Origin: Gammaproteobacteria bacterium
Lineage (GTDB): Bacteria; Pseudomonadota; Gammaproteobacteria; Pseudomonadales; Pseudohongiellaceae
Assembly (NCBI GenBank): GCA_002729315.1
Contig: PBTW01000118.1
Span: forward strand, 1-32,729
Direction of reading: 5' to 3'
Length of the DNA: 32,729 nt
This document shows positions 910 through 29,190 of the stretch, in pieces (the stretch's first letter is position 1; the number at the start of each line of letters is the position of its first letter). A program made the position numbers and the translations under genes. The notes beneath the pieces were generated by a model that had not been told where the DNA came from, did no database searches, and saw only the letters and a list, made by a program, of their open reading frames with translations.

Positions 910-3537
910 ATGAATTTTCGTAGACACCCAAAGACCTTGCTGGCAGCAGCTATTTTGGCCGCTACCGGGGCGCCTCAGGTCGCCTTCACGCAAGACAGCG
1001 GCGCTGACATCGAAGAAGTCGTTGTCACCGGCGCGCGTGGACGTCCTCGCACGGTATCGGACTCACCTGTGCCTGTTGATGTCTTCAGCGCTGACGAAAT
1101 CCAAGCGATCTCGCACACTGACACTAACAACGTGCTACAAACGTTGATCCCATCATTCAACGTTGCTCGTCAACCGATTTCGGACGGCGCGACCATGATC
1201 CGGCCTGCGTCACTGCGCGGATTGCCCACAGACAAGACTTTGGTCTTGGTCAATGGGAAGCGCCGACACAGAGCTGCGCTGGTTTCAATCGGTGGCTCAG
1301 GTACGCAGGGCCCTGACATGGCAACAGTTCCAGCCTCAGCACTGAAAAACATTGAAGTACTACGCGATGGCGCGTCGGCTCAATATGGTTCTGATGCGAT
1401 GGCTGGCGTTATTAACTTTATATTGAATGACAATAGCGAAGGAGGAAGCCTTACCATCGACCAAGGGGAATTCTTCGAGGGTGACGGCGCGATGACCACC
1501 GTGCTCGGCAACATAGGCCTGCCCCTTGGCGACAGCGGATTTGTCAGTATTTCGGGCGAATTCAATGAAGCTGACCGTACCAATCGCGGAAAGCAGTACT
1601 GCCATTCTTGGTGGTGTGTGGATCCGAGCCTTCCTGGCTTCACCTCGATGAGTGCAGCTAAGCAAGCGGCGGCTCAAGACCCAACTTATCAAGCTAACTG
1701 GAAGAATGCTAACGCCGCCGGAATCTCCGAAGTCGTTCAGCCATGGGGACAGCCTCAAACTGAAGCCGCTCGTGTTTTTGTTAACGCTGGTTATCAACTA
1801 GACGCTGACACAGAGCTTTATGGCTACGGTAACTTTTCCGACTCGAGCACGGACGGTAACTTCTTCTATCGATATCCGGGTAACGGAACTATCGAAGATC
1901 TGCGTCGGCCTGACGGCTCAATTTATTCACCGCTTCAAATTTTCCCCGGAGGCTTCACGCCACAGTTCAACGGTGATGTCCTCGACTTCTCGTTGCTCGG
2001 CGGCATGCGAGGCGAGCTGGATAACGGCCTGACATATGATTTCAGCGCCCGAACAGGTGAAAGTGAAATTCAGTACACTCTATTTAACACAATTAACCCA
2101 TCATTGGGTGACTCGGCTGGCACTGTTCCGACTAGCTTCCGCCCGAGTGACCTGATCAACTCCGAGACTCAGTTCCAAGCTGACTTTACGTACGAGTTCG
2201 ACGCAGGCCTAGCCGGCCCAGCACTCTTCGCATTCGGCGCAAGCTATATGGGTGAAGAGTATGAGTTGCGTCAAGGCGATCCTGCCTCCTACGTCGCTGG
2301 CCCCTACGCAAGACAAGATCCATGGGATCTCTGTAATGCAGACGGCACTACAGCGCCGAATGGGATCAATGCTATAGCCGGTGGCTCTACTCTTAACTGT
2401 GCCGATTCAGACGATCCTGTTTACACAGTTGTCGGTGTTGGTTCAAACGGTTTCCCAGGTAACAATCCACAATTCACAAACGTGTTTGAACGAAACTCGT
2501 TTGCGGTATACGGTGAACTGAGTGGTGACGTAACCGACAGCTTGTTCCTGCAGGGTGCGGTACGTTACGAAAACTATGAAGACTTCGATTCCGAGATTCT
2601 CTTCCAGCTTGCCGGCCGACTTGAATTAAACGACATGTGGAATGCCAGAGCGTCAATCGGAACCGGTTTCCGGGCTCCTACACCTGGACAGCAAGGCACG
2701 GTAAACGTATCGACACGTCTTCCTGATGGTATCCCAGTAGCAACAGGTCTGTTCCCAGCTGGTGGCCCAGTTGCACAGGCACTTGGCGCTACGCCACTCA
2801 AGCCTGAGCTGTCCAACAGCTTTACTATAGGGCTTACTGGTTCGATTGGTGAGATGGATTTGACTTTAGACTACTATCGGATCGATATCGATGACCGCAC
2901 AAATGCGATCTCGACTCGAGCGGTGTCTACAGATCCAACCTCTGGTTCCGCCTACGCTAACTACCAGGCGCTCGACGCAGCCGGTGTTGCTGGCGCCAAC
3001 TCGATTGGCGGTGTTTTCTACTTTACTAACGCATTCGACAGCCGTACCGAAGGTGTTGACCTCGTAGCAACTTTGCCGCTTGGAGACTCAACGAACGTCT
3101 CTGCAGCAATTAACTACACTGAGAATTCATTTGAATCTGATCCAAGCGTGTACTTGAACGCTGAAAATCGTTGGGATTTTGTGAATGCCGACCCGCAGTG
3201 GCGTGGTATTTTCACAGGTATCCAACAGCTGGGTGATGACCTGCAGCTCATCGCTCGTCTCCAGTGGTTCGGTGAATCTACTAATTCAAACCGAGGTGGC
3301 TCAGGCCCAGACGGACTGCGTTTCCAGACGCTGCCTGATTTCTACCAATTTGATTTAGAAGGTCAGTGGCAGATAAATGACATGTTCAACCTGTCTGCAG
3401 GCGCTCGAAACGTCTTCGACGAGTATCCTGACATAGACACCATCAGCGATTTTTGCTGTGGCCGTGTCTACTCCTCAGGTACCTTCGTTCCATGGCAGGG
3501 TGGTTACTACTACGCTCGCCTTCGAGCTGACTTCTAA
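910..3537 (+). CDS. TonB-dependent outer membrane receptor
   Basis: 875 aa with signal peptide and plug-domain motifs 'EEVVVTGAR', 'SLRGLPTDKTLVLVNGKRRHRAALV', 'NIEVLRDGASAQYGSDAMAGVINFIL'. Ends in a beta-strand with terminal F ('YYYARLRADF'). Shine-Dalgarno-like aggag about 10 nt upstream. Confidence 0.95.
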   Translation: MNFRRHPKTLLAAAILAATGAPQVAFTQDSGADIEEVVVTGARGRPRTVSDSPVPVDVFSADEIQAISHTDTNNVLQTLIPSFNVARQPISDGATMIRPASLRGLPTDKTLVLVNGKRRHRAALVSIGGSGTQGPDMATVPASALKNIEVLRDGASAQYGSDAMAGVINFILNDNSEGGSLTIDQGEFFEGDGAMTTVLGNIGLPLGDSGFVSISGEFNEADRTNRGKQYCHSWWCVDPSLPGFTSMSAAKQAAAQDPTYQANWKNANAAGISEVVQPWGQPQTEAARVFVNAGYQLDADTELYGYGNFSDSSTDGNFFYRYPGNGTIEDLRRPDGSIYSPLQIFPGGFTPQFNGDVLDFSLLGGMRGELDNGLTYDFSARTGESEIQYTLFNTINPSLGDSAGTVPTSFRPSDLINSETQFQADFTYEFDAGLAGPALFAFGASYMGEEYELRQGDPASYVAGPYARQDPWDLCNADGTTAPNGINAIAGGSTLNCADSDDPVYTVVGVGSNGFPGNNPQFTNVFERNSFAVYGELSGDVTDSLFLQGAVRYENYEDFDSEILFQLAGRLELNDMWNARASIGTGFRAPTPGQQGTVNVSTRLPDGIPVATGLFPAGGPVAQALGATPLKPELSNSFTIGLTGSIGEMDLTLDYYRIDIDDRTNAISTRAVSTDPTSGSAYANYQALDAAGVAGANSIGGVFYFTNAFDSRTEGVDLVATLPLGDSTNVSAAINYTENSFESDPSVYLNAENRWDFVNADPQWRGIFTGIQQLGDDLQLIARLQWFGESTNSNRGGSGPDGLRFQTLPDFYQFDLEGQWQINDMFNLSAGARNVFDEYPDIDTISDFCCGRVYSSGTFVPWQGGYYYARLRADF

Positions 3538-13421: not shown

Positions 13422-13655
13422 CCCGCCGCTGATCACCGGATCAGAGAGGCTTTGAGGAGAAAAACCTGCCGCATTCGAAGCTTTCAGGGCTGAAGACTAA
13501 AAATTACTAGCCGGCGCCAAAAATATAATTATCAATATCAATAGCTTAAGAAATTTAAAGTGCCAAGTACTCCGGCTCCGAAGTGGACAAATCCGCCGGT
13601 AAGGATTACGCTTAATCAAAATTTAAGAAGAAGCCTCGCAAATAAAGGTATCGCC

Positions 13656-15005
13656 ATGAAATTCCCCGATTTTTCACTGTGCTTCCTGATTTCTCTGGGC
13701 CTAGCCGCCACCGCGACGGCTGAAGACGTGCCAACTTTCTATAAGGATGCCCTGCCGGTTTTCATGAACAACTGTGCGGCCTGCCATCAAGATAATCCGC
13801 CCGACGTAGGGGGAATCAGTGCACCGATGTCTCTCATGGATTACGAACAGGCAAAGATTTGGGCCCCGCTGATCAAAAATGCTGTGGCTACAGGCTACAT
13901 GCCGCCTTGGGGCGCCCATGAGCGTCATCGCGGGGAATTCAAAGGCGAACGCTATATGGACAAAGCGGACAGAGATCTGCTGATCGCCTGGGTGGATGGT
14001 GGAGCCTTGAAGGGCGACCTTGCGGCGGCCAACGACGCACTGAGTTCGACCAGTGTGGGCACAGCCATGCCCGAATCTGGCTGGTGGATTGGTGAACCGG
14101 ATCTCGTCGTCGGCTTTGAAAAATCCGTTTACGTCGGCGATGACGTGGAAGACTGGCAGCCGACGGTACAGATGCCTGTTCCCGAGGGTGCCCACGAGAA
14201 CCCTAAATGGATCTCAATGGCCGAATTGGATCCCGGAGGTCCCTGGGTCCACCATATCGTCTCCAGTCATATGGGCGTCGGGGTGCCCGGCCGTGGTCCC
14301 TTTACCTATCCGGAAGGATGGGGAGTTTTGTTACCCGAAGACCCGTTTATTACCGTTAACATGCATTATCACAAAGATACCGGGGAAGGCACCGGCGTCA
14401 TTGATGATACCCGCGCGGGCTTCAAATTCTACGAAGCCGGTGATGTTATCGACTACGTGGTAGAGACAAACCTGTTACCGCATCGCGGCTGGACGATTCC
14501 CGCTGGTGACCCTAACTACGAAGTCACCAATACCCATGCAGTGGAGGAAGATATTTATCTGCTGTCCATGGGACCCCATATGCATTATCGCGGCAAGGCC
14601 ATGCGTTACGAACTCGAGTATCCCGACGGTGAACGCGAAGTGCTGCTGTGGGTTCCCAAGTATGACTTCAACTGGCAGTTTCTCTACGAATATGAAACAC
14701 CCAAGTTCATCCCGGCGGGTTCGACCTTGCATATGAGCTGGTGGTTTGACAACTCAGAGGGAAACCCCTGGAATCCGAATCCTTCGCAAGATGTGGTTTA
14801 CGGCCCGGAAACAACCGATGAGATGGCAAATGCCCGGATCTATTACGCTCCGACCACTCCCCGTGGGATCGTGGTCGGCCGTGACCTGCCCCCTGACGTC
14901 CTGAAACGGGCTCAGGAAGAAGAGCAGCGCCGACGGGACAACGCTAGCCTGCTGGTGCAGAGCGAGGATGATTTTTCCTGGCTCGAGTTAGACAGCCAAG
15001 ACTAG
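13656..15005 (+). CDS. Secreted c-type cytochrome fused to a copper type-II monooxygenase-like (PHM-like) region
   Basis: Start at internal Met (MKFPDFSLCFLISLGLAATATAED signal peptide). Heme motif CAACH; 'GPWVHHIVSSHMG', 'NMHYHKDTG', 'MGPHMHYRGKAMRYELEYPDGEREVLLWVPKYDFNWQFLY', 'WFDNSEGNPWNPNPSQDVVYGPETTDEMANARIYY'. Confidence 0.85.
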   Translation: MKFPDFSLCFLISLGLAATATAEDVPTFYKDALPVFMNNCAACHQDNPPDVGGISAPMSLMDYEQAKIWAPLIKNAVATGYMPPWGAHERHRGEFKGERYMDKADRDLLIAWVDGGALKGDLAAANDALSSTSVGTAMPESGWWIGEPDLVVGFEKSVYVGDDVEDWQPTVQMPVPEGAHENPKWISMAELDPGGPWVHHIVSSHMGVGVPGRGPFTYPEGWGVLLPEDPFITVNMHYHKDTGEGTGVIDDTRAGFKFYEAGDVIDYVVETNLLPHRGWTIPAGDPNYEVTNTHAVEEDIYLLSMGPHMHYRGKAMRYELEYPDGEREVLLWVPKYDFNWQFLYEYETPKFIPAGSTLHMSWWFDNSEGNPWNPNPSQDVVYGPETTDEMANARIYYAPTTPRGIVVGRDLPPDVLKRAQEEEQRRRDNASLLVQSEDDFSWLELDSQD

Positions 15006-18431: not shown

Positions 18432-20465
18432 CTAGACAGTTGCTTCGTTCCAGTGCTTTACCCGAACTTTGACTTTTTCAATGTCATGTTTACATACGCC
18501 GGCTTTTGCGATCAGCTTGTAATCGCAAATGTCGCAGCGGACACATTCCTTAAAATCAATCGCCGGGCCTCGGATTGCTCCGGTCGGACAGGCATACTCA
18601 CACACCTTGCAGACATCACACTGCTGTACCCGTTTGATTCTGAACGGTGACACCAGCGAAACCACCCCTAAGGAGGCTCCGAGTGGACAGGCGTAACGGC
18701 AATAGAAACGTGGGATGAACACAGCGCCAAACAGAAAGCCTGCGGCAATGGCCCAAAGCACCATTGAGCGGGAGATAAAGAAGACCGTTCCGAAAGGCTC
18801 AAAGTACTGAAATAGACTCAACTCCGAATAGGCAAGTGCCATCATGACCAGAAAAGCCAGGATGGCATATTTCACATATATAGCCAAATCGTGTATGGCC
18901 TGAGGAACCTGGTAGAGAAACTGTTTGGGAACGATTCGTGTGATGAAATCCTGCAGCGCGCCGAACGGGCATAGCGAAGAGCAGAAAACTCTGCCCCACA
19001 GCAGGGCGGTCACGATTGTAAACACAATTACGATCAGCAAGGGCAAATCATTAAGGAATAAAGAAGGACCTAACTTGATGCCATTAGTGATGTGGGAAAC
19101 TGAGACAAAGCCGCCGTCCATCCAGCCCAGGTAGACAAGAGTCACTGTCAGCGCTGCCCAACGTAGTATTTCCTTTTTCACGACAAATGCCATCATTACC
19201 AGAGCGCAGATCAAGAGCACGGCAAATACGTCTGAAAGAGGTGAACTTTCAATCAGCTCAGTCCAGACCGTTTCCTCCGGAAACTGAAACCTCTCGGCGT
19301 CAATCTCTGGACGTGGAATCAGTTCGGGCGCAATGGGTCCTCCTTCGGAAAGCGACAGGGCAAGTTCAGGCACCTTGTAGGCCATCTCATGAATACTGCC
19401 GAACTCGCCGACCACTCCCTCAGTGCTGTAGAGAATTGAAAACGGCTCCTCCAGATCAAGCTCGGGCATCAGGACAATAGCGCCGGCAAAGCGCGTACGA
19501 TCCTTAATTTTGCCGGCGTCTGCGCTACCCGCATAGACAAACCGGCGCCTTTCAACCGGGTAGAATTCATCCCCTTGCTTGATCGCTAGTCGCTCCTGTC
19601 TGAACGGCTGAGATGAATTGCCATCAATCCCTACCAGCAGCATTTTGCCTTCCCGCGACCGATTGCTGGCATCGCGGTCCGCAAGGGAGTAATCATCGAT
19701 CCCCAGCATCAGCTCTCCAAGGCCGTCGTGTCCGATAAATGCGAGTGACAAGTGAAGCTCAGTGAGATCTGGCTGGATCACCAGCATCTCCTTGACCAGA
19801 CCACTTTCAATCATGTCGTCCCAACTCTGGTTCTCGTACACACGCAGTGCCATTGCATCATCGCTAGCAGCCGCCACATAATCAGAACCCGGGAGATAGC
19901 TGTGCGCCATTTTACGAGCAGAATCCCTGACGCCCCGCGCTACTGCCCAACTGGTGATCGTTGCGCGGGAGATGCCGTCAATGTCTCTGCCCACCCGGAA
20001 TTCTTCGGTAATGTTCTTGCGGGAAAACTGTTGCGGGAAATATTCGCTGTTGACGAAATCACCTCGGATACTTTTATAAGACTCGATGTAATGCAGCACC
20101 TCGATGCCAGTCAGCGTGCCACGAAGATCAATTCCGACAAGGACGTCAATGGGCGCACTGTAGCCAACTTCTTCAGGAGGATAATCCGGTGTTTCAAAAA
20201 GATAACCCACCAATTCCGCATCCGCACTGCCAACATCACCCTTGTAACCCCGATAGACGGGAGGGCTCCCCTCCTTCAGGGAGAAGGAATCCGCATCGCG
20301 CATGACCGATTTCAAAACTTCCTCGTTGACGTCAATCGGCGCCTGTCCGTGGGCGACATTTATCAAGGCAACCAGACAGAGCACAAACATGAGCCCGTCT
20401 GATTGAGAAAAGGGTTCCAGAAATTGATCAAGATAACCGCGAAGCGCTTGCTTTATAGAAAACAT
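18432..20465 (-). CDS. NosR/NirI-like membrane protein: FMN-binding domain, TM helices, C-terminal 4Fe-4S polyferredoxin
   Basis: FMN-domain motif 'GISRATITSWAVARGV'; 'RVFCSSLCPFGALQDFI'; 'CRYACPLGASLGVVSLVSPFRIKRVQQCDVCKVCEYACPTGAI' and 'CVRCDICDYKL'. The ORF extends to 20531; the internal Met at 20465 is a plausible start. Confidence 0.88.
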   Translation of the reverse strand: MFSIKQALRGYLDQFLEPFSQSDGLMFVLCLVALINVAHGQAPIDVNEEVLKSVMRDADSFSLKEGSPPVYRGYKGDVGSADAELVGYLFETPDYPPEEVGYSAPIDVLVGIDLRGTLTGIEVLHYIESYKSIRGDFVNSEYFPQQFSRKNITEEFRVGRDIDGISRATITSWAVARGVRDSARKMAHSYLPGSDYVAAASDDAMALRVYENQSWDDMIESGLVKEMLVIQPDLTELHLSLAFIGHDGLGELMLGIDDYSLADRDASNRSREGKMLLVGIDGNSSQPFRQERLAIKQGDEFYPVERRRFVYAGSADAGKIKDRTRFAGAIVLMPELDLEEPFSILYSTEGVVGEFGSIHEMAYKVPELALSLSEGGPIAPELIPRPEIDAERFQFPEETVWTELIESSPLSDVFAVLLICALVMMAFVVKKEILRWAALTVTLVYLGWMDGGFVSVSHITNGIKLGPSLFLNDLPLLIVIVFTIVTALLWGRVFCSSLCPFGALQDFITRIVPKQFLYQVPQAIHDLAIYVKYAILAFLVMMALAYSELSLFQYFEPFGTVFFISRSMVLWAIAAGFLFGAVFIPRFYCRYACPLGASLGVVSLVSPFRIKRVQQCDVCKVCEYACPTGAIRGPAIDFKECVRCDICDYKLIAKAGVCKHDIEKVKVRVKHWNEATV

Positions 20466-20683
20466 TATTATGCTTTTGATGCGCAGGGACATCGATATCG
20501 TACACAATTTATCAGCCCAGAGTAAACGCACAATGGCCGCTCAGCCCTTCCAGAACAGCAGCCGGTCTGAAAGCACCTGCGCAGCCAGAAACTGACTTAG
20601 CGAGGCTACTTTATCCGATATTTTTCGCCGGAACGGTGTATGATTGAGGCTCCGAATCACGATTCCTTGCTACAGCGCGCCCT

Positions 20684-22847: not shown

Positions 22848-24866
22848 TCAGTGTGCTCCACTCTCCGCCTGAGCGGCAGGCAGAGCCAGCGCAGTCAACT
22901 TAGAGCTGGTCTGTAGCATGATATACTGATGGCCGTCGTGCACCCAACTGCTCATGCCGTAGCTTGAGCGGGCGGGGGCTTCCATCTCAGCCGCAATCTC
23001 GCCAGTATCTTTGTCCAGGGCCCACAGCATAGGTGTGCCGTCGGAGGCCTGGTCGGAATACACCAGCATGGTGGGCGTAACTACCATTGGCACCAGAGCG
23101 CCGGTACCGGTATTACCGTAGACCGACTCCGAGACTCCCGCACGTTCAAAGGCGTCTTTATAGCGCTGCGGAGTTTCCCCAGTTGGGACGGTAAACTTCT
23201 TCTCGCCGGTATCCATGTCATAAGCTACTATCGTACTGTATGGCGGTTTCCAGATCGGCAAACCGCTAGGATGACGCGGAGTACGTGCAGTCGCGCCGCG
23301 CACGCTGTTCGCATACTGCGCAGTGGTTGTGCCGGTCGAGTTCGGGAAAAGCAGATCAGCCTCTTCGCCGGGAATAAGCCTCAAGGTAAAGCACGCGGTG
23401 TGCTCTGACAAATAAAAGATGTTGTTCACAGGGTCAGCGACCGGCGGTGAGGTTATGTTTACGCCCCCCGCGCCGCCGGGACAATTCATAGCGGCATACT
23501 TACCCATCGGATTGTCAGCGTGGATCGGCGGATTAAAAAGACCACCCATCACATAATCTTCCATAGTGGCCAGTGATTGCGCCTTTAGCTCAGGCGTGAA
23601 ATCCAGCAGGTCTTCTTCGCTGATCCCCTGCATGGAGTAAGGTTCTGGCCAGGTCACATGCGGTTGCGTAGGCGAGAGAATTTCGCCAGGGACTATCGAA
23701 GCTGGGACCTCGCGCTCCTCAATCGGCCAGACCGGCTCACCTGTAAGACGGTTGAAGGTGTACAACCAGCCCTGCTTGGTTGCCTGAACGACCGCGGGAA
23801 TTAATTGCCCATCTACAGCGAGATCCATGAGTATAGGCGCCGTCGGTGTGTCAAAGTTCCAGATCTCATGATGGACGAACTGGAAGTGCCACGCGCGTTC
23901 ACCTGTACTAGCGTTCAGCGCAATAATGCTCGCTCCGTATAGGTTATCTCCCGGGCGAAAGCCACCGTAGTAATCAATGGTCGCGCTATTGGTCGGAATA
24001 TAGACAAGATCATTCTCCGGGTCAGCCGAGAGCGGAGCCCAAGAAGAAACGTCTCCGGTCCATTCCCAGGCGTCATTTTCCCACGTTTCGTGACCGTATT
24101 CTCCGGGCTTGGGAATGACATTGAACTTCCACTTGAAATCGCCGGTGCGAAGGTCATAAGCGAGGATGTCGCCGGGCACATTTTCTATGCGCGACTGGTT
24201 GTAGCCTTGTTCCGCAGAGTTACCCACAACAATGGTGTCATTTACCACGATAGGTGGAGATGATGACGTTATGTATCCCGTCTCAAGTGGTATGCCCTCG
24301 TAGGGGTCGTAGGGATGTCCCAGATCTTTCAGCATGTCCACAACACCGCTCTCCGGAAATCCGTCCACGCCAACCGGTGCACCCCAATCATCGAGAGGCA
24401 CCCCAGTCTTGGCATCCAGCGCCGTCAGGAAAAAGCCCGGCGAAACAATTAGCACCACGCCCCGTCCATCAATGTAACCAAACGCCACTCCTTTGCCATA
24501 GTCGGCTCGCATGGAGTATTCTGCGCGCGGAGTCTTCGGCTCCCGATATGACCAGACGGTTTCTCCTGTCTTCGGATCGATGGCGATTACATGCCGATTG
24601 TAGCCGGCCACGGTGTAAAGCAGACCGTCGATCAGAGACGGCGTAGAGCGACCGCTCACCGCCCCGAAGCTGGCACCATCCCACTCCCAAGCCACTTCCA
24701 GATCTCCGAAATTTTCCGGCGACAGCTCCTCAGCTGTGGTGTAGCGAGTGTGCGCATAGTCATTGCCAAGCGTGAACCATTGGTCAGCGTCTTGAGCAGA
24801 GATAAGCCCCGGACTCATAAGCATAAGAAAAAGCACTAAAACTCTACTTAAATCAATACCTTGCAT
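22848..24866 (-). CDS. Secreted PQQ-dependent quinoprotein dehydrogenase (8-bladed propeller, glucose/alcohol dehydrogenase superfamily)
   Basis: 672 aa; signal peptide; 'RGRPGDNLYG'-type motif 'FRPGDNLYGASIIALNASTGERAWHFQFVHHEIWNFDTPTAPILMDL', repeated propeller W-motifs, 'CPGGAGGVNITSPP'. RBS-like AAGGAG upstream. No CxxCH heme motif. Confidence 0.9.
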   Translation of the reverse strand: MQGIDLSRVLVLFLMLMSPGLISAQDADQWFTLGNDYAHTRYTTAEELSPENFGDLEVAWEWDGASFGAVSGRSTPSLIDGLLYTVAGYNRHVIAIDPKTGETVWSYREPKTPRAEYSMRADYGKGVAFGYIDGRGVVLIVSPGFFLTALDAKTGVPLDDWGAPVGVDGFPESGVVDMLKDLGHPYDPYEGIPLETGYITSSSPPIVVNDTIVVGNSAEQGYNQSRIENVPGDILAYDLRTGDFKWKFNVIPKPGEYGHETWENDAWEWTGDVSSWAPLSADPENDLVYIPTNSATIDYYGGFRPGDNLYGASIIALNASTGERAWHFQFVHHEIWNFDTPTAPILMDLAVDGQLIPAVVQATKQGWLYTFNRLTGEPVWPIEEREVPASIVPGEILSPTQPHVTWPEPYSMQGISEEDLLDFTPELKAQSLATMEDYVMGGLFNPPIHADNPMGKYAAMNCPGGAGGVNITSPPVADPVNNIFYLSEHTACFTLRLIPGEEADLLFPNSTGTTTAQYANSVRGATARTPRHPSGLPIWKPPYSTIVAYDMDTGEKKFTVPTGETPQRYKDAFERAGVSESVYGNTGTGALVPMVVTPTMLVYSDQASDGTPMLWALDKDTGEIAAEMEAPARSSYGMSSWVHDGHQYIMLQTSSKLTALALPAAQAESGAH

Positions 24867-25015: not shown

Positions 25016-25468
25016 TCACACCGAAACAATCGGCTCGCTGACCATCACATAGGTCTCTTTGAAGATTTGCGGCATGCGTACCGCCTTACCCGTGTCGAGG
25101 TTGGTACATACGAATTTAAAATGGCCGCGGGCCATTGTCCGGCCTGACTCCGGGTGAAGTATCTGAAACTTCCTGGCCAGTCTGATGCGGCCATCGGGAT
25201 CGACAATCCACGTCGCAACTTGAAGCTCATCTCCTTCATAGGCTGAACCCAAAAGCTGCACATCGAAGCTGATCGCGGCCATACCCCGGGCCATTTTTTT
25301 ACAGGTCACTTCATCCAGACCAAGAGAGGCCGAATGCGCGAATGCGCAATCAATCATCCACTGCACATAATTATGAGTGGAAACGTGACCATATCCATCT
25401 ACATGCCGGGCAGTCGCTGTGACCGGAATGACAAAGGGGTGCGTTCTGTCCCAAAATGGACCTGACAT
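25016..25468 (-). CDS. 4HBT-family acyl-CoA thioesterase
   Basis: 'VTATARHVDGYGHVSTHNYVQWMIDCAFAHSASLGL' and 'FDVQLLGSAYEGDELQVATWIVDPDGRIRLARKFQI' are hot-dog fold hallmarks. The ORF extends to 25564; the internal Met at 25468 (MSGPFWDRTHPF) is preferred. Confidence 0.82.
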   Translation of the reverse strand: MSGPFWDRTHPFVIPVTATARHVDGYGHVSTHNYVQWMIDCAFAHSASLGLDEVTCKKMARGMAAISFDVQLLGSAYEGDELQVATWIVDPDGRIRLARKFQILHPESGRTMARGHFKFVCTNLDTGKAVRMPQIFKETYVMVSEPIVSV

Positions 25469-25564
25469 ACTGATCCCCTGAATAGAAAGCATGCGCAGAG
25501 TTGGCGGAGCCCAGCAGGCCCCGATCACCATTGCGCAGAAGCACGCATAACAGGCACTGGACAA

Positions 25565-27250
25565 TCAGCCCTTCAGCGCGAAAGTAAACAGGCTGTTACC
25601 TGAAATAATGGAGACGTATTGCACACCATCCACCATATAGGTTACCGGTGCCATGACTATCTGCCCACCTAGATTCTTGTGATAGAGCAATTCTCCACTT
25701 TTTGCGTCGAGTACGTGGAAATAACCTTCCCGGCCGCCGGTGATCAGCAGATCAGTCACTGTCGTCAACATACCACTGTCGCTGACGTCATACTGTTCAA
25801 ACTCCCAGACTTCTTCCCCGGTATTCGGATCCAGAGCCTTGAGCGAAGCATGTCCGACTTCATCCGTCCAGTTGTTTACTGGATTGGTACGGCCGATGCC
25901 GATCGTTGGTGCATCAGGCGCCGGAGCCAGCACACTGAACCCACCTCCTAGAAAGGCTCTGCCCGGCTTATATTCCTGCTCTTCCGAACGATATATCGTT
26001 GCGTAATCCTCCCAGGCACTGAAATAAAAGAGGCCAGTTCGTGGACTAAAGGAAGGGGGGTACCAGTTTGTCCCCCCCTGATTACCCGGATAGGTCGGCA
26101 TGCCATCTGGCTGCGGCGTGATAATCGGCCGGCAGTTCTCATCCAGACCACTGGACCAGTTCACTCGCACGTAGGGCTTGGCAACCAGGCACTCGCCGGA
26201 TGTCCGGTCGAGGACGTAGAAATAGCCATTACGATTCGCCCACATCATCACCTTCTTGGGCATACCGTTCCAATTCAGATCCGCGAGCACCGGCACCTGA
26301 ACGGCGTCATAGTCGTAGGGGTCATTCGGTGTGAATTGAAAATACCATTGCAGTTCGCCCGTATCGACATCCAGCGCGATAACCGAATCAGAATAAAGAT
26401 TGTCACCGGGGCGTTGTTCGTTGTTCCAGTCAGGCCCGGGATTTCCGACTCCCCAGTAAACCTGATTCTGCTCCACATCAAATGACCCCGTTATCCATAC
26501 TGGCGCCCCACCATGCATCCAGTCATCGTCCTGCCAAGAATCGTGACCGGGTTCGCCTGGTCCCGGGATGGTATAGGTTTTCCAGGCCTGTTCCCCGGTG
26601 TCCGCGTAGTAAGCAGCGACGTAGCCTCGTATTCCGAACTCTCCGCCTCCAACACCAACAATGACTTTGTCTTTCACCGCCAACGGCGCCATGGTCACAG
26701 AATTAGCTAGAGCCACGTCACCCACTTCCGCGTTCCACAATGCTTGACCGTTAATACGATCGAGCGCAATCAGCCGAGCATCAAGGGTACCAATAAACAC
26801 CCTGTCACCCAGAACCGCGACCCCTCGATTATTTGCACCACAACACACACGAGCTCTCTCATCTGGCGTGTGCGCGTATTTCCAGAACACCCTGCCAGTC
26901 ATTGCATCAACCGCCATAACGCTGTTTGGGCGCTCAGTCACATACATGATGCCATCAACCACAATGGGGTTCGATTGCCAAGCGCCGAAAACCTGATTCT
27001 GTAAAACCCATTTAAGTTCGAGATCCACCACGTTGTCCTGATTGATCTGATCAAGCAGGCTGTAGCGCTGGCTCATATAGCTGCCATTATAGGTCAGCCA
27101 ATTTTGCGGCTCGTCGGCAGCATTGAGAATGCGGTCATATGGGACCTGAGCATCGACAAGATGAAGGGTTTGGCTCGCAAACAAGAGTGCTAGGCAGCCT
27201 TTAAGAGCAGATTTGACGAGTTCAGCTAAACCTGTGTTTGAGGTGTTCAT
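25565..27250 (-). CDS. PQQ-dependent methanol/ethanol-family alcohol dehydrogenase (no fused heme domain)
   Basis: 561 aa; 'WLTYNGSYMSQRYSLLDQINQDNV', vicinal cysteines 'RVCCGANNRGVAV', 'RPGDNLYSDSVIALDVDTGELQWYFQFTPNDPYDYDAVQVPVLADL', 'NRNGYFYVLDRTSGE'. Confidence 0.93.
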   Translation of the reverse strand: MNTSNTGLAELVKSALKGCLALLFASQTLHLVDAQVPYDRILNAADEPQNWLTYNGSYMSQRYSLLDQINQDNVVDLELKWVLQNQVFGAWQSNPIVVDGIMYVTERPNSVMAVDAMTGRVFWKYAHTPDERARVCCGANNRGVAVLGDRVFIGTLDARLIALDRINGQALWNAEVGDVALANSVTMAPLAVKDKVIVGVGGGEFGIRGYVAAYYADTGEQAWKTYTIPGPGEPGHDSWQDDDWMHGGAPVWITGSFDVEQNQVYWGVGNPGPDWNNEQRPGDNLYSDSVIALDVDTGELQWYFQFTPNDPYDYDAVQVPVLADLNWNGMPKKVMMWANRNGYFYVLDRTSGECLVAKPYVRVNWSSGLDENCRPIITPQPDGMPTYPGNQGGTNWYPPSFSPRTGLFYFSAWEDYATIYRSEEQEYKPGRAFLGGGFSVLAPAPDAPTIGIGRTNPVNNWTDEVGHASLKALDPNTGEEVWEFEQYDVSDSGMLTTVTDLLITGGREGYFHVLDAKSGELLYHKNLGGQIVMAPVTYMVDGVQYVSIISGNSLFTFALKG

Positions 27251-27252
27251 CC

Positions 27253-28050
27253 CTAACTCTCTCCATCTAAAGTCAGTAAATAAGCAATGACGTCGGCCAC
27301 TTCTGCTGGAGTCAGATTCGTCGGCCCCTTGCTTGGCGATTCGCTGATCTCATAAGTCACCAAATCGGCCTTAATCAGTGAACGCAAGCGTTCATTCGAA
27401 TCGATAAGCTGAACAGTGTAGGTGTCCTCATTCAGCCGCCGTCCGATAATGGTTTCTTCATTACGGGTCACAATTCTGACCGGACGGTTAATAGGCAGAA
27501 TCGCGGCAGCTGGATCAACCAGATTTAACTGCAGGTTAGCTGGCGAGCGCTCGACACCAATAGCGCTCAGATCAGGGGCTGTTCGTGGACCCATTCCGTT
27601 GACACGATGGCAACCCACGCACTCCCCCTTCCCCTGGAAAAGCGCCAGACCGCGCGTCGCATCTCCGATGCGAATGGCAATCCCATCCGGATCAAGCCCG
27701 GCCCTGATATAAGCGATCACCCCGCTCAACTCTGACTCTCGCAATTCAAACGCCGGCATCTGCCCCTGAGCCCGGCCTTCCGCGATCACGCTTCTCAGGT
27801 CATCGTCTGATTGAGCTGAGCGAAACTCTCCCCGGGCTAGGTTAATCCCGCTGACGAGATCACCCTGCGGGCCATGACACAATGCACATTCCCGTGAATA
27901 TACCCGCAGACCCGCCTGGATGGCTTCCGACGTGTATTGATGGTCCGCTATCTCCTGCGCCTGACTCAGTCCTGGCAACCCGGTCAGTGTCGCGATGACT
28001 GCGAATAACCAGATCGTCGCGCGGCGAAAACCCCGAATTTGCTTGATCAT
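27253..28050 (-). CDS. Diheme c-type cytochrome (probable electron acceptor of the adjacent PQQ dehydrogenase)
   Basis: Signal peptide; CALCH and CVGCH; C-terminal 'GRRLNEDTYTVQLIDSNERLRSLIKADLVTYE...LTPAEVADVIAYLLTL'. Start chosen at internal Met 28050 (ORF begins 28086). Confidence 0.9.
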   Translation of the reverse strand: MIKQIRGFRRATIWLFAVIATLTGLPGLSQAQEIADHQYTSEAIQAGLRVYSRECALCHGPQGDLVSGINLARGEFRSAQSDDDLRSVIAEGRAQGQMPAFELRESELSGVIAYIRAGLDPDGIAIRIGDATRGLALFQGKGECVGCHRVNGMGPRTAPDLSAIGVERSPANLQLNLVDPAAAILPINRPVRIVTRNEETIIGRRLNEDTYTVQLIDSNERLRSLIKADLVTYEISESPSKGPTNLTPAEVADVIAYLLTLDGES

Positions 28051-28284
28051 GTGGATACCTATAATGCTAGTACGCCGTCCAAGCATATAACCTTGCCGTT
28101 AGCAGGTCCATATGGACACAAAGCTGCAATTCAGCTTAGGTTTCTAAACAAAATCGGGTTTGTTATATTCAGTCCGTAGATGCTTTTAAGCGCCGTCGCC
28201 GGGCACGAAAATTCAACTTCAATTCCTTCGCGTTAGGGACAGCCCGAGGCCTGATCAAGAACAATAATAGCGAGGTAACCCACT

Positions 28285-29190
28285 ATGGTCCTGTTACGAC
28301 GAAAAGCACTAAGAAGCGCAAGTATCGTCGCCCTGATTGTCGGCTTGCTAATCTCTCCTCTCAGCCTGCACGCACAGGACAATAGCCAGGGCCGCTACCG
28401 CCCCGAAGGCAGACAAGTCGGTCTGGCAATTGGCCGGGAATTCGATGAAAGACTCTACGAAGTGCGGACCTATGAACCCGAGGTCGGCGCCGAAGCATTC
28501 GCTGGAGCGATGGTCTTCTATCCGCTGACCCTAAGCTTCGATCCGCCCAACGGCGCTGTGGCCTTCGTTCCCGGCTTCAGAGCACCGGCATCAGTCTACG
28601 AATGGTGGGGGCCTGCCCTGGCATCTCTCGGATACTCAGTTTTCATTCTCGAAACCAACACACCGACTGACGCACTCGCTGCAAGGGCTGATGCACTCAT
28701 CGCAGCGGTGGACTTAATCAAGGCAGAAAACCAGAACCCCGACGCGCCCGTTGCAAACAAAATTGATCCGGAAAAAATCGCAATTATGGGTCATTCCATG
28801 GGAGGCGGTGCCTCTCTGGTGGCCGCTACCCAGATGGGAGATAGTATCAAGGCAGTCATCCCGTTGGCACTGTATTGCTGTGAGCCCGGCCAGTCCTTCA
28901 GCGGTGATTACGGCAGCCTAACGCTACCCACCATGATTATAGCGAGCGCCGAAGACGAGGTAGCTCCACCAGCTGAGCACGCCAAACTGCTTTACGACTC
29001 TATCGGCGGCAGCAAGACCTATGTCGAATTTGCCAGGGGTGACCACATGTTCATTTCAAACAGTGGGGATCAGAAAGCTACTCTGGGGCGTTTCGTTCTG
29101 GCTTTTCTTAAGGACATTCTGGATGGCAGAAACCATCTGGAGGGCCTTGGCGATGGGGGCGCGGAACTAACTCTCTTTCTGAATGAGTAG
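28285..29190 (+). CDS. Secreted alpha/beta hydrolase, dienelactone-hydrolase/cutinase (PET-hydrolase-like) family
   Basis: 301 aa; signal peptide; 'AVAFVPGFRAPASVYEWWGPALASLGYSVFILETNTPTD', 'IDPEKIAIMGHSMGGGASLVAATQ', 'LPTMIIASAEDEVAPPAEHAKLLYDSI', 'YVEFARGDHMFISNSG'. The order and spacing match bacterial cutinases/PET hydrolases. Confidence 0.87.
   Translation: MVLLRRKALRSASIVALIVGLLISPLSLHAQDNSQGRYRPEGRQVGLAIGREFDERLYEVRTYEPEVGAEAFAGAMVFYPLTLSFDPPNGAVAFVPGFRAPASVYEWWGPALASLGYSVFILETNTPTDALAARADALIAAVDLIKAENQNPDAPVANKIDPEKIAIMGHSMGGGASLVAATQMGDSIKAVIPLALYCCEPGQSFSGDYGSLTLPTMIIASAEDEVAPPAEHAKLLYDSIGGSKTYVEFARGDHMFISNSGDQKATLGRFVLAFLKDILDGRNHLEGLGDGGAELTLFLNE

Follow-up and report, generated by a model that had tools for sequence, protein, structure and literature searches.

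A PQQ-dependent alcohol dehydrogenase with a predicted lanthanide site, encoded beside a dihaem cytochrome c and placed outside the XoxF and PedH clades

To our knowledge, confirmed lanthanide enzymes belong to a few clades only, the XoxF groups and PedH/ExaF. Throughout the family of PQQ-dependent alcohol dehydrogenases (ADHs), the metal acts on the C5 carbonyl of PQQ, and an aspartate serves as the catalytic base. Two residues after this aspartate, PedH carries Asp and needs lanthanides, while PedE carries Ser and uses Ca (PMC5487730). Claims that most ocean PQQ dehydrogenases need rare earths rest on this D-x-D rule. For the marine Pseudomonadales UBA9145, the main text of Voutsinos et al. 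(2025, PMC11996626) gives up to 70 putative lanthanide PQQ dehydrogenases per genome. Abundant putative lanthanide dehydrogenases of marine Pseudomonadales are thus already on record in that text, and the ADH described here is a further example of that kind.

The window under analysis is the whole of a 32,729-nucleotide stretch (contig PBTW01000118.1, assembly GCA_002729315.1) from a Pseudohongiella-like Gammaproteobacterium, whose 2.68 Mb assembly is 91% complete. Translation of the ORF at 25565-27250 on the minus strand gives a product of 561 aa that begins with ATG and contains no internal stop. This product scored 539.5 bits against TIGR03075 (PQQ methanol/ethanol dehydrogenase; cut-off, 480.05) in a profile search, and its closest PDB match by sequence is the lanthanide-dependent PedH. 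An AlphaFold2 model (mean pLDDT 80.6) shows an eight-bladed propeller, for which Foldseek ranks PedH first (6zcv; E 2e-51, TM 0.82, ~35% identity). The score above the cut-off and the match to the PedH fold agree with the initial annotation, which had called a PQQ alcohol dehydrogenase from the letters alone. The quinoprotein beta-propeller is accompanied by PQQ pocket residues, namely R142, W252 and the vicinal cysteines C136-C137 (VCCG; 26840-26845, minus strand), the latter at the residues where they had been noted. The N-terminal segment is hydrophobic and signal-like, and the enzyme is presumably periplasmic. A type II quinohaemoprotein ADH was rejected as a candidate, as the chain stops after the last blade and includes no haem domain.

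The ADH also matches TIGR04528 (acido-empty-quinoprotein) at 485 bits, under the cut-off of 650. A tentative interpretation of this match is a quinoprotein that has ceased to oxidise alcohols, for instance a sensor or an "empty" quinoprotein. We consider it very unlikely: none of the residues checked for catalysis, PQQ or metal is altered, all of them are conserved, and the ADH has an electron-acceptor cytochrome as its partner.

The metal site was examined by alignment to PedH (6zcv), XoxF (6oc5), the Ca quinohaemoproteins 1kv9, 1kb0 and 1yiq, and an annotated MxaF whose locus also harbors moxJ, moxG and the small subunit. E204 (GGGEFG; 26639-26641), N270 (GVGNPGP; 26441-26443) and the catalytic aspartate D313 fall on the three shared ligand positions. 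E204 and N270 correspond to Glu172 and Asn256 of SolV XoxF, the metal ligands of which are E172, N256, D299 and D301. D313 and the extra "lanthanide" aspartate D315 (D313-Y314-D315; 26306-26314, on the minus strand like the other ligands) align with both metal-ligand aspartates of PedH and XoxF. In the D315 column, T or A is found in 1kv9, 1kb0, 1yiq and the annotated MxaF, and Ser in the Ca enzyme ExaA (1flg; WDFSG). The vicinal cysteines, R142, W252, N395 and R340, the catalytic Arg near PQQ C5 (26231-26233, minus strand), are conserved as well; the position of R340 holds Arg in XoxF, MxaF, PedH and ExaA, and Lys in quinohaemoproteins. The initial annotation had read the two aspartates in TPNDPYDYDAV, with codons at 26314-26312 (D313) and 26308-26306 (D315) of the minus strand, and both codons are as it said. 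Comparison with PedH, XoxF, MxaF and ExaA places D315 in the metal-ligand column, and the metal site proposed there is upheld by the presence and conservation of all four protein ligands, with PedH ranking first in structural alignment.

The use of D-x-D as a marker of lanthanide dependence stood in one respect only: D315 does differ from the T, A or S of Ca enzymes, but D-x-D alone is not diagnostic. Many sorbose-/glucose-dehydrogenase-like quinoproteins in the same alignment possess D-x-D without the Glu and Asn ligands, and the main text of PMC11996626 cites a characterised m-GDH that bears D-x-D yet complexes Ca, Mg, Zn or Sr. Hence, the motif on its own is weak evidence, and the complete E/N/D/D set makes a stronger case. 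From this set we infer that a lanthanide, rather than Ca, occupies the site of the ADH.

One may also envisage the same ADH being metal-promiscuous or using Ca in vivo, with D315 in a structural or second-shell role. The divalent metals of the D-x-D-bearing m-GDH speak for this possibility, and so does a Ser-type PedE of Methylopila, which keeps 60-80% of its activity at 10 mM lanthanides (PMC10409515); such tolerance indicates that the motif is no strict switch. Residue 312 points the same way, being Tyr in the ADH and Trp in every characterised reference aligned. The Glu and Asn ligands of the clade are, however, like those of XoxF and PedH and unlike those of m-GDH-like proteins, and D315 is invariant throughout the sampled clade. 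Ca use or promiscuity thus appears unlikely, yet it is the most serious of the competing explanations. Seawater Ca exceeds lanthanides around a billion-fold (PMC11996626, main text), and this excess weakens the lanthanide reading, as do the D-x-D of m-GDH, the altered residue 312 and the failure to find a LanM motif or an importer.

The site is well conserved across relatives. A scan of genome contigs retrieved a clade of ~32 orthologues, the ADH itself included, with ~70-97% identity; their hosts are mostly Pseudohongiella-like Gammaproteobacteria, and Gemmatimonadota MAGs are also represented. All 31 other orthologues, from both phylogenetic groups, keep D-x-D. A second set, made of 34 homologues from sister genomes (48-85% identity), overlaps the first, and some of its members probably come from the same genomes. 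N270, D313 and D315 are kept in 34/34 of these homologues and E204 in 32/34, the remaining two having Asp. Residue 312 varies (Y, M, H or L) and, not being Trp, may alter the geometry of the site. The ADH or a ~50% identical paralogue group was present in 36 of the 59 genomes of a family sample. Beyond the family the clade is rare: in a class sample, 2/274 genomes, one of them the source genome, had it at E <= 1e-140.

A maximum-likelihood tree of 80 proteins was built by a quick method, with deep support of 82-95, so that the exact sister group is unsure. In this tree, the ADH clade groups with uncharacterised proteins: the own-genome paralogues L002, L004 and L005, a Sinorhizobium fredii protein, and L068. 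The quinohaemoprotein clade also excludes the ADH. Given a metal site identical to theirs and PedH as the best PDB match, the ADH might be a true XoxF methanol dehydrogenase or an orthologue of the ethanol dehydrogenase PedH/ExaF (ADH type 2b). Both identities were rejected, as the ADH falls outside the XoxF/MxaF clade (support 100) and outside the group formed by PedH, a Phaeobacter homologue and ExaA (support 100). In addition, identity to PedH is ~35%, the C-terminal pocket loop is missing, and neither a XoxJ-like periplasmic binding protein nor a XoxG-type monohaem cytochrome was found among the genes beside the ADH. Orthology to either enzyme is therefore the least probable of the explanations considered, with hardly any chance of being correct. 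The label "XoxF/PedH-type" given in the initial annotation fits the metal site and fails as a statement of lineage: because the tree puts the ADH outside both clades, it describes a site and not descent.

The gene directly upstream (27253-28086, minus strand), 2 nt from the ADH start, encodes a dihaem cytochrome c (CALCH, CVGCH) that is probably the dedicated electron acceptor. Its score in a profile search is far under the cut-off for cL. The pair is kept in all orthologues with complete upstream DNA, and a cytochrome c gene is adjacent or overlapping upstream in 34/34 homologues. The overlap measures 1 or 4 nt in 30 of the 34. Of the other four pairs, two are separated by short distances of 2 and 14 nt, and two overlap further, to an extent set by the automatic choice of start codon. 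Both haem motifs were detected in the cytochrome ORFs of 33/34 homologues. In the S. fredii homologue, located on a plasmid (L077, 3362-5548, plus strand), cytochrome and ADH are naturally fused in a single ORF that runs from a membrane-helix-like N-terminus through a monohaem cytochrome c domain (CSACH) to the PQQ-ADH, the reverse of the domain order in type II quinohaemoproteins. Altogether, the conserved pairing and the S. fredii fusion are good evidence that the ADH is functionally coupled to the upstream cytochrome, and its electrons presumably reach this protein.

The second haem domain of the cytochrome has a peculiarity of its own: the expected distal Met is not conserved, and PSK, PVH, PTH, PTM or PIM are found in orthologues. 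Met, His and Lys may thus replace one another as ligands in different species.

Other genes of the window deserve mention. Downstream of the ADH is a thioesterase-like (4HBT_2) ORF (25016-25564, minus strand) with an uncertain start, the ATG at 25468 being likelier; its synteny is limited to close relatives, and a functional link to the ADH is uncertain. An equally uncertain link concerns a second quinoprotein (22848-24866, minus strand), syntenic in close relatives, in which N-x-D replaces D-x-D. This protein has Asn at the catalytic Asp (HHEIWNFDTP), Lys in place of Arg, and neither the Glu nor the Asn ligand. The Asn is retained in all syntenic orthologues and in an own-genome paralogue (L018), which suggests a changed or lost catalytic base. 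Divergent from the cytochrome-ADH pair, and syntenic in close relatives, is a gene for a PETase-like (PF12740) secreted alpha/beta hydrolase (28285-29190, plus strand), which could release an alcohol substrate. Further away, the product of 13560-15005 (plus strand) combines a cytochrome-like N-terminal region with a weak C-terminal match to Cu type II monooxygenases and is possibly a copper oxygenase. A NosR/NapH-like polyferredoxin membrane protein with an RnfG-like N-terminus, far under the NosR cut-off, is encoded at 18432-20531 (minus strand).

Searched family by family, the source genome shows ~19 genes resembling those of quinoprotein dehydrogenases, and a congeneric relative gave up to 77 candidates at first look. 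The full E/N/D/D set is present in six of the source-genome quinoproteins (the ADH, L001, L002, L004, L005 and L006), and the Ca-type residue is absent from all aligned methanol/ethanol-type paralogues of this genome. None of the paralogues groups with XoxF in the tree, and no XoxF was found in the genome. Contig C110 carries pqqB, C, D and E, and the bacterium can therefore probably make its own PQQ. One DNA pattern, representing a single form of the LanM-type EF-hand motif, had no match in the genome, and tests of low power identified no lanthanide importer or uptake gene. A search for TonB receptors gave 19 matches in the genome, none of which could be linked to lanthanides by family match alone, and the same holds for the receptor at 910-3537 of the window.

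Differences from PedH are also seen in the substrate pocket. The ethanol site of PedH is small and buried, and an F412V/W561A double mutant has been engineered for larger substrates (PMC12462760); comparison of two PDB sequences identifies 6zcv as that mutant. The ADH clade lacks the C-terminal loop that bears W561 in PedH, a segment that is longer still in XoxF, and N390 occupies the position of F412. With the loop missing and Asn at this position, it is reasonable to infer from sequence that the pocket is more open and that the substrate may therefore be larger than methanol or ethanol. In addition, the stretch that follows N270 (NPGPDWN) is longer by one residue, and around residues 445-465 the clade has an insertion of its own that AlphaFold models poorly.

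The interpretation that we favor with fair confidence is that of a periplasmic PQQ-ADH, most likely with a lanthanide in its site, that passes electrons to the upstream cytochrome. The active site would contain PQQ together with a metal, most likely a light trivalent lanthanide, bound by E204, N270, D313 and D315. The metal would polarise the C5 carbonyl of PQQ, D313 would act as the base, and a primary alcohol (or an aldehyde) would be oxidised. Electrons of PQQH2 would then be transferred singly to the dihaem cytochrome c and from there to the respiratory chain. An attractive but doubtful speculation is that this distinct lanthanide-ADH clade forms an obligate two-protein unit with the cytochrome and that its oceanic substrates, after the loss of the pocket loop and bulky residues, are larger than methanol or ethanol. 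If true, such a unit would broaden the range of lanthanide enzyme functions. As a conserved marine clade outside XoxF and PedH/ExaF, it offers a compact two-gene target for probing the D-x-D rule beyond the characterised families. At the level of titles and abstracts, the literature yielded no paper on lanthanide ADHs coupled to a dihaem cytochrome, and the main text of PMC11996626 contains no description that we could find of the cytochrome pairing, the fusion or the altered pocket of this clade.

Comparison with known systems can be summarized as follows. The lanthanide-dependent PedH of P. putida KT2440 (6zcw, 6zcv), considered together with ExaF, shares with the ADH the fold, the E/N/D/D ligands, D-x-D, the vicinal Cys, the Arg near PQQ, and a Gln where MxaF and XoxF have Glu55. 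The ADH differs in its sequence divergence and separate clade, in the missing W561 loop, in N390 for F412 and Tyr for Trp, and in having the gene of a dihaem cytochrome partner directly upstream. With the lanthanide-dependent methanol dehydrogenase XoxF (6oc5, 6dam, 4mae) it shares the four metal ligands and D-x-D; unlike XoxF, it belongs to a separate clade, has neither the long C-terminal extension nor the 220-240 loop, and is not flanked by xoxJ or xoxG. Type II quinohaemoprotein ADHs (1kv9, 1kb0, 1yiq) resemble it in the propeller domain and in the delivery of electrons to cytochrome c, but possess D-x-T, Lys for Arg and a haem domain fused at the C-terminus, whereas the ADH combines D-x-D and Arg with a dihaem cytochrome encoded separately (in S. 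fredii, a cytochrome fused at the N-terminus). Finally, the enzymes described in the main text of Voutsinos et al. (2025, PMC11996626) are comparable in their related habitat and order, in the D-x-D criterion, and in the large number of PQQ dehydrogenases per genome.
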